From: Blastopirellula sp. J2-11
GTDB lineage: Bacteria > Planctomycetota > Planctomycetia > Pirellulales > Pirellulaceae
Assembly (NCBI RefSeq): GCF_024584705.1
Contig: NZ_CP097384.1
Coordinates: forward strand, 4,712,001-4,776,000
Direction: 5' to 3'
Length of the DNA stretch: 64,000 nt
Each line of letters begins with the position of its first letter. Within the stretch, counting starts at the first letter, position 1. Both the position numbers and the translations under genes were made by a program. The notes under the pieces were generated by a model, which ran no database searches, was not told the origin of the DNA, and saw only the letters and a program-made list of their open reading frames with translations. Shown here one piece after another: positions 6,298 through 38,640 of this stretch.

Positions 6298-6331
6298 AAA
6301 GAACCGCTTACCAAGCGGCAAGCGGTTCTTT
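6298..6331 (-). terminator. Rho-independent terminator of the Cys-rich gene
   Basis: A 12-bp perfect stem (AAAGAACCGCTT / AAGCGGTTCTTT) with a 10-base loop lies 34 bases after the stop codon of the Cys-rich gene. Read on the minus strand it is followed by a T-rich tract (TTTTATTTCTT). The flanking A/T pairs would allow some activity in the other direction too, but no gene reads into it from that side. Confidence 0.75.
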
Positions 6332-6364
6332 CTAAGTTTCGGACGGGCCTACTGTTGTGGGCAA

Positions 6365-6847
6365 TTAGCCACAGCAGGTCGGTTCCGGAGCGCAGCAGGT
6401 CGGCTCACAGCAAGACGATCGCTTGCAGTGATTGAACAGACGCTTCAGGAAGCAAGGCTTCTTGCAGCAAGGTTCGCAGCACGACGGCTCAGGAGCGCAG
6501 CAAGTCGGTTCCGGAGCACAGCAGGTCGGCTCGGGAGCGCAACAGGTCGGTTCCGGGGCACAGCAGGTCGGCTCGGCGCCGCAGCAGCTCGATTCGCAGC
6601 ACTTCGGCTTGCAGCACGAAGCAAGTTTCGCACGCAGCTTGCCAAACAAGCCCATGCGGCAGCTACAGGGATCACAAGGATCGCAACAGCTAGGTTCGGG
6701 GGCACAACAGGTCGGTTCCGGCGCGCAGCAGGTCGGCTCGCAACCGCAACCGTGGTGGCCAAACAGGCCCGCTTCGGCGTTGGCGGCAACGACAGCAAAG
6801 ATCGAAGCGACAACCAAAAACGCCGGGAGAACAAGACGGCTCTTCAT
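6365..6847 (-). CDS. Secreted Cys-Cys repeat protein
   Basis: A 160-residue exported protein: signal peptide [26 protein letters not shown], then an almost uninterrupted array of the heptad APEPTCC and variants ([19 protein letters not shown]). Two short basic, cysteine-poor inserts ([12 protein letters not shown] and [11 protein letters not shown]) break the array. Cysteine pairs make up over a quarter of the mature chain, which suggests a disulfide-cross-linked or metal-binding extracytoplasmic structural protein; this is inference. The ATG at 6847 was chosen over the upstream in-frame start because it begins the signal peptide and has a GGAG ten bases before it. A terminator follows. Confidence 0.75.
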
Positions 6848-6874
6848 CTGTGAGAACTCCAAATGTCTCGACAA

Positions 6875-7246
6875 AAAAACTAAAACGGCTCTTGCGGCGC
6901 CAGCGTCTCAATAGCAAACAAACTATGAGACCCGCCAGCTTGCAGAGATTACCTACTCGTCCAGTGATGAACGCTATCAGATGCTATCGTCCTCCCAGGA
7001 CGCCCAGGTTAACCACACCGCTCTCTTTTCGTGAACGGATTTCTTTTCCCGGTCCGAACGTACCGGACGTCACGATTATCCGATGCAAATCCCCTGAAAG
7101 GAGCAACTTACGGAGCTGTTTCCCCTTCTCAACCCCCTGTTCGCACGCGTCCAATCCTGCCGAACCCATTTCGCGACCTACCTTTTTGCATGCTTTGCCC
7201 TTTCGAAGGGGCAATGGGGCAACCACGGCACAGCAGGAGTGCGAAC
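6875..7246. other. Intergenic region upstream of two divergent genes
   Basis: This stretch of about 370 bases separates the divergent Cys-rich and Hpt genes and should carry both promoters. I see no RNA gene and no convincing ORF. An 18-bp near-palindrome (7196-7213, TGCCCTTTCGAAGGGGCA) sits 33 bases before the Hpt start and is followed by a partial direct repeat GGGGCAATGGGGCAA. It could be an operator, but nothing identifies a regulator. Confidence 0.4.
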
Positions 7247-7585
7247 ATGACCATTCAATCCAGCAGCGAACCGCTCTATTCCGAACTGGGAGATGATCCC
7301 GACTTGGCGGAAATCGTCGAAATGTTCGTTGACGAGATGCCTGACCGAATCGAATCGATGCTGAATTGCGTCGACAAGAATGACTGGGACGGTCTCGGCC
7401 GAATCGCGCATCAACTAAAAGGGGCCGCCGGCAGCTATGGCTTCGGCCAGATCACCCCCTACGCCGCTCAACTCGAGCACGACTGCCGCAGTCAGGCAAG
7501 CGACGAAGCGATGATCGCTTCGTTTCGCGAACTCGCCGTAGTATGCCGCCGAATTCGCGGCGGCGCACCTAGCACGAAGTATTGA
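7247..7585 (+). CDS. Hpt-domain histidine phosphotransfer protein
   Basis: A stand-alone 112-residue Hpt protein. The conserved phospho-accepting histidine is in HQLKGAAGSYGFGQI (about residue 50). The rest forms the expected four-helix bundle: EIVEMFVDEMPDRIESML before it, and AAQLEHDCR and FRELAVVCRRI after it. Hpt proteins relay phosphate between hybrid kinases and response regulators. The ATG at 7247 has an AGGAG at 7235-7239 and gives the usual Hpt length; the in-frame upstream extension is not family-like. No kinase or response regulator is adjacent, so partners must be elsewhere. Confidence 0.85.
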   Translation: MTIQSSSEPLYSELGDDPDLAEIVEMFVDEMPDRIESMLNCVDKNDWDGLGRIAHQLKGAAGSYGFGQITPYAAQLEHDCRSQASDEAMIASFRELAVVCRRIRGGAPSTKY

Positions 7586-31859: not shown

Positions 31860-32747
31860 TTAGCCCACCATGCCGATCGTTTCAAACTCCAGACTGCGGA
31901 GTCGCTCGGCGACATCATCGGCGGTCTCGGGACGGCGGAGCGGGTCTTTCGCCAGCATCCTGGCGATCAAAGTCGCCAGCGCCGCCGGAGCATTCGGCAA
32001 GAAGCGGCGCAGCGGCGGCGGCGTCTGCGATTTGTGGGCGGCGACGATCTTCGCCAGATCAACGGTATCAAACAGCCGATGCCCTGATAACAGTTCAAAA
32101 GCCATCACGCCCAAGCTATACAAGTCGCTCGCGTCGGAGGCGGCCAGCGTCGAGGTGAACAGCTCCGGCGCCATATAACGCGGCGTTCCCTTTTGGTACT
32201 GCACCGCGTCAACTTCATCGACGCCAATTTGCGTCGCGAAACCGAGATCGATCAGCGTCACTCGGCCACTGGCGTCAATGATGACGTTTTCCGGTTTCAC
32301 ATCGCCATGACGCCAACCGGCGGCGTGCAGCGCAGCCAGGCCTTCGGCCACCTGGCGAATAATCCAAATCCTGGCAGCCAACGGACCACGGCGGGGAACC
32401 AATTGATGAAGGGTCACGCCGGTCAGATAAGGGAAGACCAGATAGGCTTCTTCACTACCGCCGATCTGATGCGCAAGCACCGTCGCCAGGCGGGGCGAAG
32501 CGACCTGTTGCGAAACACGGACTTCGCGCCGTAACATTTCCAAGGCTAACGGATCGGCCGCATATTCGGGTCGTAACGTTTTAATCGCGTAGTCCCACGC
32601 GATTCCCTTACCGCCAAGGGGCTGGGCTCGTGAGACATCGCAGAACGAACCTCGCGCGACCAGATTACCGATGCGCCAGTCTCCCACGACCGACAGGCGC
32701 GCGGGGGTGCGAAGTTTTCGATGGACGACTGTCGGCTGCATGAGCAT
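31860..32747 (-). CDS. Ser/Thr protein kinase
   Basis: A 295-residue stand-alone Hanks-type kinase domain without a membrane segment. Gly-rich loop VARGSFCDV, ATP-binding Lys in AIKTLRPEYA, catalytic loop RHGDVKPENVIID (HGD instead of HRD but with the catalytic Asp and Asn), DLG instead of DFG, and GTPRYMAPE are all present. HGD and DLG variants are common in active bacterial kinases, so it is probably active. The frame has two possible ATG starts two codons apart (32747 and 32741) with no clear ribosome site. Substrates are unknown. Confidence 0.85.
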   Translation of the reverse strand: MLMQPTVVHRKLRTPARLSVVGDWRIGNLVARGSFCDVSRAQPLGGKGIAWDYAIKTLRPEYAADPLALEMLRREVRVSQQVASPRLATVLAHQIGGSEEAYLVFPYLTGVTLHQLVPRRGPLAARIWIIRQVAEGLAALHAAGWRHGDVKPENVIIDASGRVTLIDLGFATQIGVDEVDAVQYQKGTPRYMAPELFTSTLAASDASDLYSLGVMAFELLSGHRLFDTVDLAKIVAAHKSQTPPPLRRFLPNAPAALATLIARMLAKDPLRRPETADDVAERLRSLEFETIGMVG

Positions 32748-33345: not shown

Positions 33346-34464
33346 ATGAAACGTCGTCTCTTCCTGAAGGCGTGCGCCATCGCCGCTTCGGCCGCAGTCG
33401 GATGCAATTCTCCGTCAAACCCCTCGGGCACTTCGGGTGGAGCGGTCAAGAATGAATTCCCCCTCTCCAACGGCAAGTACACGATCCTCGACCTGCGCTC
33501 TGACAGCGGAAATCATGACCGCGCCAAGCAAAATGCCGAAGCCGCGATCTCGAAATATCCAAATTTAAACTGCATGGTCGGCCTTTACGCCTACAATCCT
33601 CCCACCATTTTGCGGGCAGTCGAGAATGCCGGCAGACTGGACGACATCAAAATCGTCGGCTTTGACGAGGATATTGAGACCCTGAAAGGGATCGAAGAAG
33701 GAAAGATTTTCGGCACCGTCGTGCAGCAGCCATTTTTGTTTGGCTTCAAATCAGTCGAATATCTATCGGCGCTGGTTCGCGGTCAAAAGGTCGATGTTCC
33801 CGAGAGCGAAATCATCTATATCCCGCATCGAGTGATTCGTCCCGCCGACGCCGCGCAGTTCAAATCCGATATCGAACAGATGATGGCCGGCGACGGGAAA
33901 GCTCCCGCCGCCGCGCGTGATGACTACGACACCAGCGAACCGGTGAGCTTGGCGTTTTTAACCAACACGGTCGATCCGTTTTGGACCCTGGCCGAACGAG
34001 GCGTGCAATGCGCCGAGCCGATTTTTAACGCTTCATGTGACGTCTATCATCCGCCGACCGCCAGCGCCGAAGAGCAAAAGCGTTTTATCGAGCGGAAGCT
34101 GAATGACGATTGCCAAGGTCTCGCGCTGTCGCCGATCGACAAAGAGAATCAGGGGAACTTGATCAATCGCGCTTGCGAGAAGATGAAAGTGATCTGTCAC
34201 GACAGCGACGCTCCCGATACAAATCGTTTGTTCTATATTGGGACCGGCAACTATTTGGCGGGGCGCGCTGTTGGCAAGTTGGTGAAAGAAGCGATCCCCG
34301 ACGGGGGCGAAGTCGCAATCTTCGTCGGCAAGCTCGAGCAACTAAACGCCCAAGAGCGCAGCCAAGGAGTGATCGACGAATTGCTCGACAAGCCGATCCC
34401 ACCGCAATACGCCGCCGGAGCCGAAGCCGCCGCAGCATCGTCGGCCGAGTCGGCGCCGAAGTAA
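33346..34464 (+). CDS. Circularly permuted RbsB-like sugar-binding lipoprotein
   Basis: A 372-residue lipoprotein (MKRRLFLKACAIAASAAVGC, lipobox AVGC). Residues 43-180 (GKYTILDLRSDSGNHDRAK to YIPHRVIRPADAAQF) match the C-terminal half of RbsB/Peripla_BP_4 proteins. Residues 198-349 (VSLAFLTNTVDPFWTLAERG to NAQERSQGVIDELLDK) match the N-terminal half. A 17-residue linker joins the natural ends. Both halves look complete, including ligand contacts FW (211-212), DSDAP (286-290) and FDED. It should bind a sugar for the adjacent RbsA/RbsC-like proteins, which start 43 bases later. The unusual order is discussed as a finding. Confidence 0.85.
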   Translation: MKRRLFLKACAIAASAAVGCNSPSNPSGTSGGAVKNEFPLSNGKYTILDLRSDSGNHDRAKQNAEAAISKYPNLNCMVGLYAYNPPTILRAVENAGRLDDIKIVGFDEDIETLKGIEEGKIFGTVVQQPFLFGFKSVEYLSALVRGQKVDVPESEIIYIPHRVIRPADAAQFKSDIEQMMAGDGKAPAAARDDYDTSEPVSLAFLTNTVDPFWTLAERGVQCAEPIFNASCDVYHPPTASAEEQKRFIERKLNDDCQGLALSPIDKENQGNLINRACEKMKVICHDSDAPDTNRLFYIGTGNYLAGRAVGKLVKEAIPDGGEVAIFVGKLEQLNAQERSQGVIDELLDKPIPPQYAAGAEAAAASSAESAPK

Positions 34465-34506: not shown

Positions 34507-36006
34507 GTGCCGCTGCTCGAAGTCTGCCATGTCTCGAAACGCTTCCCCGGCGTACAGGCCCTCAAAGACGTCAGCCTGTCGATCGCCGCTGGCCAATCGA
34601 TCGCGGTGATCGGCGAGAACGGGGCCGGCAAAAGCACGTTGATGAAAATCTTGGCCGGGATTCAAACCCCCGACGAAGGAGAAATCTGCATCGACGGTCG
34701 CGCGGTGGAGATTCGCACCGTCCGCGACGCCGAGAAACAGGGAATCGCGCTCATTCATCAAGAGTTGAATCTGTGCGACAACCTGGATGTTGCGGCGAAT
34801 ATGTTTCTGGGCAAAGAACCGCGGAACTGCGGATTCTTACGCCGTCGCGAAATGGATCGCCGCGCAGCGGCAGTGTTGCAACAAGTGGGGCTCGATATTC
34901 CGCCGACAACGTCATTGGCGTCGCTCTCGATCGGGCGGCGACAGTTGGTTGAAATCGCCAAGGCGCTGGCGTCAGACGCGCAGGTGCTAATCATGGACGA
35001 ACCGACGTCCAGCCTCTCAACCGGTGAAGTCGAAAATCTCTTTGGCGTGATCCACACCCTGCGCCAGCGCGGGGTCAGTATCGTCTATATCTCGCACCGC
35101 TTAAGCGAAATTCATCATGTCGCCGACCGCGTCGTTGCGCTGCGCGACGGGCGAAACTCCGGCGAACTAGCACGGGACGAGATCACGCACGAACAAATGG
35201 TTCGCCTGATGGTGGGACGCGATCTCGATCAATTTTTCCCGCATGTGCCGCACGCAGCTGGCGAAGTAGTGCTATCGGCAAAGGAAGTACGCGTGCAGGG
35301 GAAGGCCGCTTTCCCGATTGATCTAGAACTAAAAGCAGGCGAAATCGTCGGTCTGGCCGGTCTGGTTGGCGCCGGCAGGACGGAACTGCTGGAAACGCTA
35401 TTTGGGGTTCGACGCAACGTGGGGGGGTCGGTCGAAGTCGCCGGAAAGCGGGTTCGACTGCGAAGTCCTCGCGACGCCATCGCCGCTGGGCTGTTCCTGA
35501 TTCCTGAAGACCGTAAACAAGACGGCTTGGTGATCGAGATGACGGTGGGCGAGAACATCACGTTGCCAGGTTTGATGCGGGCCTCCACTGCTGGCCTGTT
35601 ACCTGCCCGCTGGGAAAAATCGATCGCCGGCGAGATGATCGAAAAGCTGCGGATCAAGACGCCGGGGCCCGATCAAATCATTCAGTTCCTCTCGGGGGGG
35701 AACCAGCAAAAGGCGGTCATCGCCAAATGGCTCGCGATGGGGCCCAAGGTATTGCTGCTCGATGAACCGACGCGCGGCATTGATATTGGCGCGAAGCACG
35801 AAATTTATGAGATGATGGAAACGCTCGCGCATCAAGGCGTGGCGATTCTCTTCGCTTCCAGCGAAATGGAAGAAGTGATCGGCATGTCGGACCGGACTTT
35901 GGTCATGCACGAAGGACGGATCGCCGGCCAGCTCGAGCGTGGGCAACTGAGTGAACAGGCGATCATGCGACTAGCGACCGGCGTATCGAGCGCAGCGACA
36001 ACCTAG
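34507..36006 (+). CDS. Sugar ABC transporter ATP-binding protein (RbsA-like)
   Basis: A 499-residue double-ATPase of the RbsA/XylG type. First cassette: Walker A GENGAGKSTLMKIL (about residue 38), signature LSIGRRQLVEIAKAL, Walker B VLIMDEPTSSL. Second cassette: GLAGLVGAGRTELLETLFG (degenerate Walker A, as usual), LSGGNQQKAVIAKWL and VLLLDEPTRGIDIG. It starts with GTG at 34507 preceded by GAAAGG. It powers sugar import with the permease 30 bases downstream. Confidence 0.93.
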   Translation: MPLLEVCHVSKRFPGVQALKDVSLSIAAGQSIAVIGENGAGKSTLMKILAGIQTPDEGEICIDGRAVEIRTVRDAEKQGIALIHQELNLCDNLDVAANMFLGKEPRNCGFLRRREMDRRAAAVLQQVGLDIPPTTSLASLSIGRRQLVEIAKALASDAQVLIMDEPTSSLSTGEVENLFGVIHTLRQRGVSIVYISHRLSEIHHVADRVVALRDGRNSGELARDEITHEQMVRLMVGRDLDQFFPHVPHAAGEVVLSAKEVRVQGKAAFPIDLELKAGEIVGLAGLVGAGRTELLETLFGVRRNVGGSVEVAGKRVRLRSPRDAIAAGLFLIPEDRKQDGLVIEMTVGENITLPGLMRASTAGLLPARWEKSIAGEMIEKLRIKTPGPDQIIQFLSGGNQQKAVIAKWLAMGPKVLLLDEPTRGIDIGAKHEIYEMMETLAHQGVAILFASSEMEEVIGMSDRTLVMHEGRIAGQLERGQLSEQAIMRLATGVSSAATT

Positions 36007-36036: not shown

Positions 36037-37158
36037 ATGAATAAAAGTTGGGGAATGCTGTTCTTGCTGGTGCTGATCTGCGTCGTCACCGCGATCTTTC
36101 GTCCACGATTCGTCGAACCGGGAAATCTGGCGAACATCATCCGTTGGACTTCGCTGTACGGCGTGATGGGCATCGGCGTCGCGTTTGTCATCATTACCGG
36201 GGGAATCGATCTTTCGATCGGTTCCATGTTGGCGCTGGTCGGTTGTTTGTTCGGCGTGCTGATGGCGCAGTACAATCTTCCGCCTGCAGCGGCGATCGCC
36301 ACGGTGTTGGTGATGTCGACGTTGCTCGGATTGGTTTACGGTTTGCTGATCACCAAGCTAAAACTGCAGCCGTTTGTCGTCACGCTTTGTGGTCTGCTGA
36401 TCTTGCGCGGACTTGCCCGCGCATCGGCCGGCGGCAGTTCGGTCGGCGGCTTCCAGCGTCTCAGCTACCTGATCAACTACGAGTGGGGAAGTATTCCCGT
36501 TCCGTTTCTCCCTTGGATTAACGAAGGCTATTGGAGCTTCCACAAGTGGCTCCCCAGCCGCGGCGATCAAGCGGGACACTTCGCGTTGAATGACGCCGGG
36601 GAACGAATCGCGCTCGATTGGTACGACTGGGTCCCGCTTCACCCGCCGATTCTCTATCTGGCGGCGATCGCGATCATCGCCGCGATCTTTTTGAACTGGA
36701 CCGTTTTCGGTCGCCATCTGAAAGCGCTCGGCAAGAACGAACAGGCGGCGCGCTATAGCGGCGTGCGGACCGATACGATGGTGATCATCAGCTATATGAT
36801 CTGCACCGCGATGGCTGGCGTCGCCGGAGTTTTGTTTTCGATCGACATCGGCAGCGTCATGCCGAGCACCTTTGGCAATTTTTACGAACTCTACGCGATC
36901 GCCGCGGCGGTGCTGGGAGGCTGCAGTTTGCGCGGCGGCGAGGGTTCGATCATCGGCGTCGTTATCGGCACGGCGATTTTGCGGGTACTGCAAAACTCGA
37001 TCGAAATGTGGTCGATCCAAGAGCTGGAGTTCGCCGTAGTCGGCGGCGTAATCTTGATCGGCGTTATCGCCGACGAAATCGCGCGGCGAATCATCGCGCG
37101 GCGTCGCGCCAGCCAAGAAGCGGCGCTGCTAGAAAAACAAAACGCGTCCCCATCGTAA
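36037..37158 (+). CDS. Sugar ABC transporter permease (RbsC-like)
   Basis: A 373-residue integral membrane protein with about eight or nine hydrophobic helices. Recognisable RbsC-family stretches are GIGVAFVIITGGIDLSIGSM (about residues 46-65) and the LGGCSLRGGEGSIIGVVIGT region near the end. A long hydrophilic insert (about 150-200, NEGYWSFHKWLPSRGDQ...) lies between helices, as in related planctomycete proteins. It forms the channel for the RbsA-like ATPase. The gene ends 38 bases before a REP-like palindrome that has been hit by an IS4 element. Confidence 0.9.
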   Translation: MNKSWGMLFLLVLICVVTAIFRPRFVEPGNLANIIRWTSLYGVMGIGVAFVIITGGIDLSIGSMLALVGCLFGVLMAQYNLPPAAAIATVLVMSTLLGLVYGLLITKLKLQPFVVTLCGLLILRGLARASAGGSSVGGFQRLSYLINYEWGSIPVPFLPWINEGYWSFHKWLPSRGDQAGHFALNDAGERIALDWYDWVPLHPPILYLAAIAIIAAIFLNWTVFGRHLKALGKNEQAARYSGVRTDTMVIISYMICTAMAGVAGVLFSIDIGSVMPSTFGNFYELYAIAAAVLGGCSLRGGEGSIIGVVIGTAILRVLQNSIEMWSIQELEFAVVGGVILIGVIADEIARRIIARRRASQEAALLEKQNASPS

Positions 37159-37266: not shown

Positions 37267-38640
37267 CTAAGCCGCTGTTGCGTAACGATTTCGAGGCGTT
37301 TGCATTAGTTTATACGCTTTCGGCCGCCGTTTAAGTTCTCGTGGTTCATTCCGGTCAGGGCGAGCGCCGACTTCCAGTTGGCGGATCGTTTGCAAGAGGT
37401 TTTCCCACTGGGACTCTTGTTGCTTCGTGTTCCAGCGGAGTGCGGCGGCGAACTCTTCGATCGCTTGCATCGCTCCGGTAAAGCTGAGCCGCCACGGAGG
37501 CAGGCGAAATTTCAACGCCGTCGCCAGCATCGCGGCCCGCACCAGATTGTAGCCGATCATGTGGCAGTGAAGTTCCTTCACAACCATCGCCGGACTTTTG
37601 CAGCGGAGGTGGTCCATTTGCATTTGCGTTTTCAAGCTCCGGATATGCAACTCCGCTTGCCAGCGGCGACGATACAAATCGGCCAAGTCTTCCGCTCGAT
37701 AAACGTCAGCCTGTAGCAGCGTCGTCGCCAACGTGATTTGACGCGTCCGAAATCCGCGCTGCGTGACTTGATATCGCAAGTGACGTACGAGAATCGACGA
37801 CGGGTAGCTTTCATATTCCCGCTGCGTCATCCACGTCGGCCGCTGCGGCTTCGAATAGCTCACGACCTGATCGCAGTCCCCTTGGCGCAAGCCTCGGCGA
37901 AAGTCGATTTTGCGAAGATGGTGCGCGCGAGCCACGATATCGATCCCGCGCAGTTCCGATAAAGCGAGCAGCCAGAAGCTGGCGTAGTAACGATCGGCGA
38001 GCACGATTTCTCCCGAGTGAAACTGCGACAAGAGCGTTCGCAACAGTGACGTCTCGCCTGTCTCCTTGCCGGCGTAACGTCCCATCGCAAACATCGTCGC
38101 CGCGCCGGTCGCTAACGAAAAGAGATGCACGATCCGCGTCAAGGGGAAGCCGCAGCCAGGCTTCTGGCTTTTCATTTGCGGATAGGCGGTTTGATTCGCG
38201 CGGGTGTCAGCCATCGTGACGGTCGTGCCGTCGACGATGACCACTTCGCGTCCCTGGAACCGCCAATCGCCGACGCCAGCTTCATCGCACTTTCGCGCCG
38301 TCCAAGCGAGCAGTCGTTGAAACAATGCAATCGGCAAGCGGCGCCGCGCTTGGCAATAGGAAGTGGTGTCGCCGCTGCAGCGCGGCAGCCCCTGCGCCAT
38401 TCGCCAGGCGTTGAGACGAGTGACGACTTGCTGACAACTATGATCGGCTGACAGCGTCTGCATGACGAACATCCACACGACGACCATCGGCGAATAGATG
38501 CGCTGCCGAAACGAGAAGCCGATCTCTTGACAGATCGCGGTGACAACGCCGTTGGGCAGCAGCAACTCGCTGACGAAGATCGAAACGTTACGGAACTTGC
38601 TTTGAACTTCCTGCGGCGAAGCGTTAAACTGATCAGACAC
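37267..38640 (-). CDS. IS4-family transposase (DDE)
   Basis: A full-length 457-residue DDE transposase. The catalytic residues are visible: D in VVIVDGTTVTMAD (about residue 137), D in GEIVLADRYYASF and the E of the YREK box YRRRWQAELHIRSLK (about residue 350), which fits Y-x2-R-x3-E-x6-K exactly. The N-terminal region (residues 1-90, FRQRIYSPMVVVWMFVMQTL) is the DNA-binding part. The stop lies two bases inside the left inverted repeat. Confidence 0.93.
   Translation of the reverse strand: MSDQFNASPQEVQSKFRNVSIFVSELLLPNGVVTAICQEIGFSFRQRIYSPMVVVWMFVMQTLSADHSCQQVVTRLNAWRMAQGLPRCSGDTTSYCQARRRLPIALFQRLLAWTARKCDEAGVGDWRFQGREVVIVDGTTVTMADTRANQTAYPQMKSQKPGCGFPLTRIVHLFSLATGAATMFAMGRYAGKETGETSLLRTLLSQFHSGEIVLADRYYASFWLLALSELRGIDIVARAHHLRKIDFRRGLRQGDCDQVVSYSKPQRPTWMTQREYESYPSSILVRHLRYQVTQRGFRTRQITLATTLLQADVYRAEDLADLYRRRWQAELHIRSLKTQMQMDHLRCKSPAMVVKELHCHMIGYNLVRAAMLATALKFRLPPWRLSFTGAMQAIEEFAAALRWNTKQQESQWENLLQTIRQLEVGARPDRNEPRELKRRPKAYKLMQTPRNRYATAA

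Follow-up and report, generated by a model that had tools for sequence, protein, structure and literature searches.

Natural circular permutations are usually regarded as single ancient events, the two forms of which have long diverged. Among the binding proteins of CUT2 importers, the E. coli RbsB/AlsB/MglB class has the canonical order of the two halves, unlike the protein described here; the operon logic is alike in both. The glucose/xylose-binding protein of T. maritima (2h3h, 2qvc, 3c6q), which belongs to the same family as our protein and matches it half by half, also has the canonical order, together with a short loop at the cut site. A natural circularly permuted Type I/Cluster B sugar-binding lipoprotein, TpMglB-2 (Tp0684, PDB 5jx2) from Treponema pallidum, has been published; the protein is reported to bind D-glucose with a conformational change, has the first three strands of the N lobe at the end of the chain, both termini in the N lobe and a gained fourth crossover, and founds a proposed class, Type Ic/Cluster Bc, that is found in spirochaetes and mainly Gram-positive bacteria, with tethering suggested as the benefit of the permutation (PMC4990184). 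Among the open-access papers listed for this topic, there was no other recognizable natural permutation in this protein class, an absence that carries little weight, and no report of repeated permutation or of several orders within one binding-protein family. The structure 5er3, released in 2015 for a protein of Rhodopirellula baltica SH 1 annotated as an ABC transporter solute-binding protein, and for which no paper was found under the entry code in the open-access literature, has the same order and the same cut as the protein analyzed here. The sequence-only reading of this locus knew of no natural case in the transporter family, which was wrong in view of TpMglB-2 (PMC4990184) and of the collinear 5er3. 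Natural permutation of this protein class is already known; its recurrence and the number of resulting orders are new.

The window, a stretch of 64,000 nucleotides from Blastopirellula sp. J2-11, encodes the rearranged protein in an intact open reading frame (Table 1). Peripla_BP_4 (PF13407) matched the whole protein in two stretches (E = 1.7e-47; 162.5 bits against a cut-off of 35.1). Run alone, residues 41-181 matched positions 153-258 of the 258-position profile (E = 1.6e-17), and residues 196-349 matched positions 6-147 (E = 1.1e-28). In agreement with these matches, phmmer aligned query residues 202-351 with residues 5-155 of the T. maritima glucose-binding protein chain 2qvc and query residues 44-141 with residues 154-251. 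Instead of the canonical N half before C half, the window protein thus carries the halves in reverse. We denote its order, C1-C2-N, form A; block C1 is presumably the second part of the C lobe in the Type I topology, and the border between C1 and C2 was fixed by relatives that hold these two blocks apart. The position of the reading frame, the reversed halves, the linker and the break behind the NAQER helix all agree with the sequence-only reading, which had also recognized the intact transporter genes downstream.

Table 1. Features of the rearranged binding protein and its operon; positions are those of the window.
Feature	Residues	Positions	Strand	Status or basis
Binding-protein ORF	1-372	33346-34464	+	Intact, 372 aa
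Lipoprotein leader, lipobox-like ...AAVGC (Cys20)	1-20	33346-33405	+	Sequence; Cys20 invariant in 12/12 aligned form A proteins
Block C1, ancestrally the start of the C-terminal half	40-97	33463-33636	+	Pfam, phmmer, relatives
Block C2, ancestrally the C-terminal chain end (VGFDE strand to tail helix)	98-182	33637-33891	+	Pfam, phmmer, relatives
Linker, ancestral C terminus to ancestral N terminus	183-197	33892-33936	+	Identity to L002/L003/L004
Block N, ancestrally the N-terminal half, ending after the NAQER...IDELL helix	198-352	33937-34401	+	Pfam, phmmer, dN/dS
New C-terminal tail, Ala/Ser/Glu-rich, weakly constrained	353-372	34402-34461	+	dN/dS, pLDDT
CUT2-type ABC transporter ATPase, two ABC_tran stretches		34507-36006	+	Pfam, E = 3.6e-55
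Permease, BPD_transp_2		36037-37158	+	Pfam, E = 1.2e-46

The two genes directly downstream, for a double-domain RbsA-type ATPase and a BPD_transp_2 permease, complete a CUT2 importer operon. The best NCBIfam model for the ATPase was AraG, with 587 bits, under the cut-off of 689. The binding protein gave weak matches to the NCBIfam models for RbsB and AlsB, and none of the named sugar-specific equivalogs (D-allose, rhizopine, ribose) scored above its cut-off (best, 55.1 bits against 335); by their database names, those relatives whose ligand is known are binding proteins for glucose, xylose, ribose or allose. N84, D107, Q127, F212, W213 and R338, which we take to be ligand-contacting pocket positions, are invariant in all 12 aligned form A proteins. 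The window gene very probably encodes a working, membrane-tethered CUT2 binding protein that is circularly permuted, one case of a recurrent process in the family. Because the two-lobed fold and the conserved pocket are kept, the protein is predicted to bind its sugar by the usual closure of the two lobes, handing it over to the permease encoded downstream; the substrate taken up in this way would be a monosaccharide. The permease gene is adjoined by a DDE transposase gene (PF01609) on the opposite strand, at 37267-38640 (-), and a Ser/Thr protein kinase-like ORF lies upstream of the binding-protein gene in the opposite orientation, at 31860-32747 (-).

AlphaFold2 modelled the window protein with a pLDDT of 85.7 and a pTM of 0.82; along the new C-terminal tail, the pLDDT falls from 82 to 34. 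The predicted two-lobed fold matches the solved structure 5er3 (Z-score = 40.3; 2.2 A over 317 residues; 47% identity), whose chain is collinear with the window protein over residues 33-353 (phmmer E = 1.7e-99). Next in rank, aligned in sequence order, came the TpMglB-2 entries (Z-score = 13.9; 12-13% identity), and the best canonical chain in such an alignment reached a Z-score of 13.0. This rank, and the fact that both proteins are circularly permuted Type I/Cluster B sugar-binding lipoproteins, might suggest that the window protein belongs to the class founded by TpMglB-2, but the low identity and the different cut make this very unlikely: the TpMglB-2 cut lies in the N lobe, whereas block N of the window protein is contiguous and in normal order, with the cut behind the NAQER helix (PMC4990184). 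The cut position rules out membership and places the window protein outside Type Ic/Cluster Bc as defined; it should nonetheless work alike.

The window genome consists of one contig with a single copy of the gene, and no second copy was detected in it at E <= 0.001. Three congeneric genomes encode proteins collinear with that of the window (86-97% identity), 25 further genomes of the family have the same order, and among the first 30 loci that the family search gave, 29, spread over 12 genus codes, are of form A. An assembly artefact swapping the two halves, which the sequence-only reading had named as a danger to its own proposal, gains some credence from the single metagenome-assembled genome behind the form D gene described below and from the many other loci that come from such genomes; it is vanishingly improbable given the congeners, the other genera and the crystal structure 5er3, which together rule out misassembly of form A. 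Compared with the congeners L002, L003 and L004, respectively, dN/dS was 0.04, 0.04 and 0.05 for the C half, 0.00, 0.03 and 0.05 for the N half, and 0.12, 0.38 and 0.35 for the new tail; the linker was 93, 53 and 60% identical, while both halves were at least 90% identical. Purifying selection is thus strong on both halves and far weaker on the linker and tail, so that selection acts along the same borders as those drawn from the sequence. Persistence of the protein in R. baltica-type genomes without an adjoining transporter might point to a decaying, non-functional product. With dN/dS of 0.00-0.05 in both halves, conserved pocket positions and an R. baltica protein that was crystallized, such decay is extremely unlikely; the matches of the halves to Pfam, the fold match and dN/dS instead bear out a permutation that left an intact, selected binding protein.

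To place this order among its relatives, we drew on a family search (149 genomes, 92 with a match at E <= 1e-20), an order search (matches at E <= 1e-40 in 51 of 296 genomes) and a phylum search (matches in 31 of 392 genomes), the sets overlapping, and on a scan of named genomes from which the best 80 of at least 560 confirmed stretches were used. The sequence-only reading had called for a search of other planctomycete genomes, and the same order was indeed found there: among the 92 family genomes, 32 have a rearranged gene (29 form A and 3 form B) and 60 a canonical one, 58 of the latter having been checked as ORFs and the order in G072 and G103 being read from the match table. Altogether, 205 ORFs from 205 loci comprised 136 canonical genes (N-C1-C2), 49 of form A, 15 of form B, 2 of form C, 1 of form D and 2 fragments; with identical copies removed (n = 180), the counts were 118, 45, 12, 2, 1 and 2, shares that do not represent frequencies because the samples were found by similarity to form A. 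Form B has the order C2-N-C1, and form C, found in two genomes (L138 and L140), the order N2-C1-C2-N1. Form D, C1-C2a-N-C2b, is not circular and comes from one metagenome-assembled genome (L139, 4965-5984): its last ~35 residues stay at the chain end, and the rest is swapped. Thus, there are at least four rearranged orders in one binding-protein family, the three besides form A being out of reach of the sequence-only reading.

Taking one protein from each of forms B, C and D, we searched its blocks individually against Pfam; 7 of 9 fell in the expected profile range, namely the three blocks of form B (one of them weakly, E = 3.4e-4) and two blocks each of forms C and D. The short first block of form C (Pfam E = 0.14) and the 34-residue last block of form D (no Pfam match) were assigned through BLAST matches to relatives. 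For form B, a modelled protein (pLDDT 79.5, pTM 0.79) matched 5er3 with a Z-score of 23.3 over 247 residues. No second form D genome was found among 132 genomes of its order, of which 21 had a match, full-length and collinear only in the form D genome itself. Rearrangement in this family is seen mainly in Planctomycetota and also in genomes labelled Verrucomicrobiota and Fimbriimonadaceae; form A, in particular, is present under the labels Fimbriimonadaceae (L131, L133), Verrucomicrobia (L137, L144) and Phycisphaerae (L134, L147). Three different genomes under a single genus code (g23) carry form A (L028, G023), form B (L030, G082) and the canonical order (L039, G146).

A tree was built with IQ-TREE from 119 representatives (71 canonical, 33 form A, 12 form B, 2 form C and 1 form D) whose blocks had been restored to the canonical order; L073 and L078 were left out of the first tree and L073, L148, L181 and L202 of the second set, after which 201 rows were merged to 119. 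On the tree as drawn, the form labels need 11 changes, with 7 for form A and 2 for form B, of which well-supported branches force 4 and 2, respectively. Depending on where the root of the tree lies, some of these changes may be returns to the canonical order, which would themselves be rearrangements. In AU tests, for which the groups were chosen after inspection of the tree, form A as a single clade was rejected by 242 log-likelihood units (p-AU = 4.3e-10), as was a single clade of all rearranged genes (p-AU = 3.5e-7) and a group joining L136 to L028, L029 and L132 (p = 1.8e-4). A clade of L028, L029 and L132 was not rejected (p = 0.40). With L141 and L144, both long rows, left out, 27 deep form A rows that include the window could be placed in a single clade (p = 0.60). 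A single form B clade was not rejected (p-AU = 0.066), although supported branches call for two. As these three groupings stand, 11 changes overstate certainty, and a conservative count from the trees would be about six rearrangements: three that led to form A and a single one for every other form. These tests show that the window's order has more than one origin on the tree.

A quick tree of the adjoining ATPase (82 representatives with a usable gene, two of them long rows) lends partly independent support to recurrence. It needs 16 form changes, splits form B further, and pairs L132 (form A) with L195 (canonical), L137 (form A) with L152 (canonical) and L139 (form D) with L196 (canonical). 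Between L132 and L195, the clearest pair, the binding protein is 76%, the ATPase 75% and the permease 77% identical: the operons otherwise correspond, the change of order is confined to the binding protein, and this gene shows no greater divergence than those next to it. With 75-77% identity across the three genes, a permuted and a canonical operon as close as these allow the route, cost and benefit of a permutation to be studied on real sister genes. The family thus presents a binding protein that appears to have been cut and rejoined several separate times, yet is intact and under selection, as measured on the window gene.

Alternatively, each order could have arisen once, the scatter over the tree reflecting errors in the tree, horizontal transfer or recombination among copies of the gene. 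Only 51 of the 116 inner branches are well supported, the clade test for form B leaves room for one origin, and the three orders under genus code g23 make transfer likely. The trees also conflict over L139. Its binding protein lies beside form B and shares 68% identity with L180 but only 50% with L196, whereas the ATPases of L139 and L196 share 74%. We nevertheless consider single origins improbable, given the strong rejection of a form A clade and the ATPase tree, which joins L132 and L137 to canonical operons; moreover, transfer of a whole gene leaves its chain order unaltered. Half-by-half top matches bear on recombination as well: in L136, L137 and L139, both halves are closest to canonical genes, and in L132 both group with L029 and L195, so that a chimera of halves from different gene copies is not supported for these four. 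In L105, the top match of the N half is a form A gene and that of the C half a canonical one (L108).

Given several separate rearrangements, the cut site and the layout of the blocks suggest how they might have come about. The form A cut falls in the loop that links the NAQER helix to the strand after it; this loop has a median length of 26 residues in 128 canonical rows, compared with 10 in the T. maritima glucose-binding protein, and is thus about 16 residues longer; the lengths were measured by pattern against this one reference and range from 25 to 59, with L061 a visible slip. The form A tails of L029, L132 and L136 resemble this canonical loop. All four rearranged orders can be written as an exchange of neighboring blocks that starts directly behind the leader, the second block reaching the end of the gene in forms A, B and C and stopping about 35 residues short of it in form D. 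Form D, which is not circular, suggests that what moves is an internal stretch following the leader rather than a circularized gene, from which form D would not result. The block behind the leader would thus have traded places with the next one repeatedly, with differing block ends, perhaps by internal tandem duplication followed by two deletions, or by a direct block move. The sequence-only reading had proposed duplication and loss of the outer halves, and this remains plausible in outline, against which stand the single copy in the window genome and the 205 ORFs, none of which is a duplicated or half-reduced intermediate; as the loci comprise short flanks, a distant remnant of a duplicate would escape such a survey. 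With no intermediate at hand, the route is one that we infer.

The cuts of the rearranged forms lie, we assume from the Type I topology, in the C lobe, which would put the lipid anchor on the C lobe instead of the N lobe. A simple lipobox test marks 59 of the 71 canonical representatives and 43 of the 48 representatives of forms A to D as lipoproteins; since most canonical relatives are likewise tethered, the tether by itself does not account for the swap. A possible but rather doubtful account is that selection repeatedly favored anchoring the binding protein to the membrane by its C lobe rather than its N lobe. In this account, at least six separate exchanges of blocks in place, with four different end points, would have brought this about; on the assumed topology every cut lies in the C lobe, one rearrangement is non-circular, and the long loop would have eased the commonest cut.

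Not all form A genes stand beside a transporter. ATPase and permease genes are absent beside six R. baltica-type loci (L206-L210 and L221), where the form A protein may serve a distant transporter or sensor, and, separately, beside L219. The form A loci L128-L130 also lack adjoining ATPase and permease genes, except for a weak ATPase-like match in L129. The gene for 5er3, unlike that of the window, is without an adjoining ATPase or permease; it was read in L206, the protein of which matches the chain of 5er3 in the parts compared by eye. In that locus, the gene occupies positions 6310-7410, and its neighbors, judged from their translations by eye, read as an ammonium transporter with a sensor kinase part, a threonine synthase and phosphoesterases.
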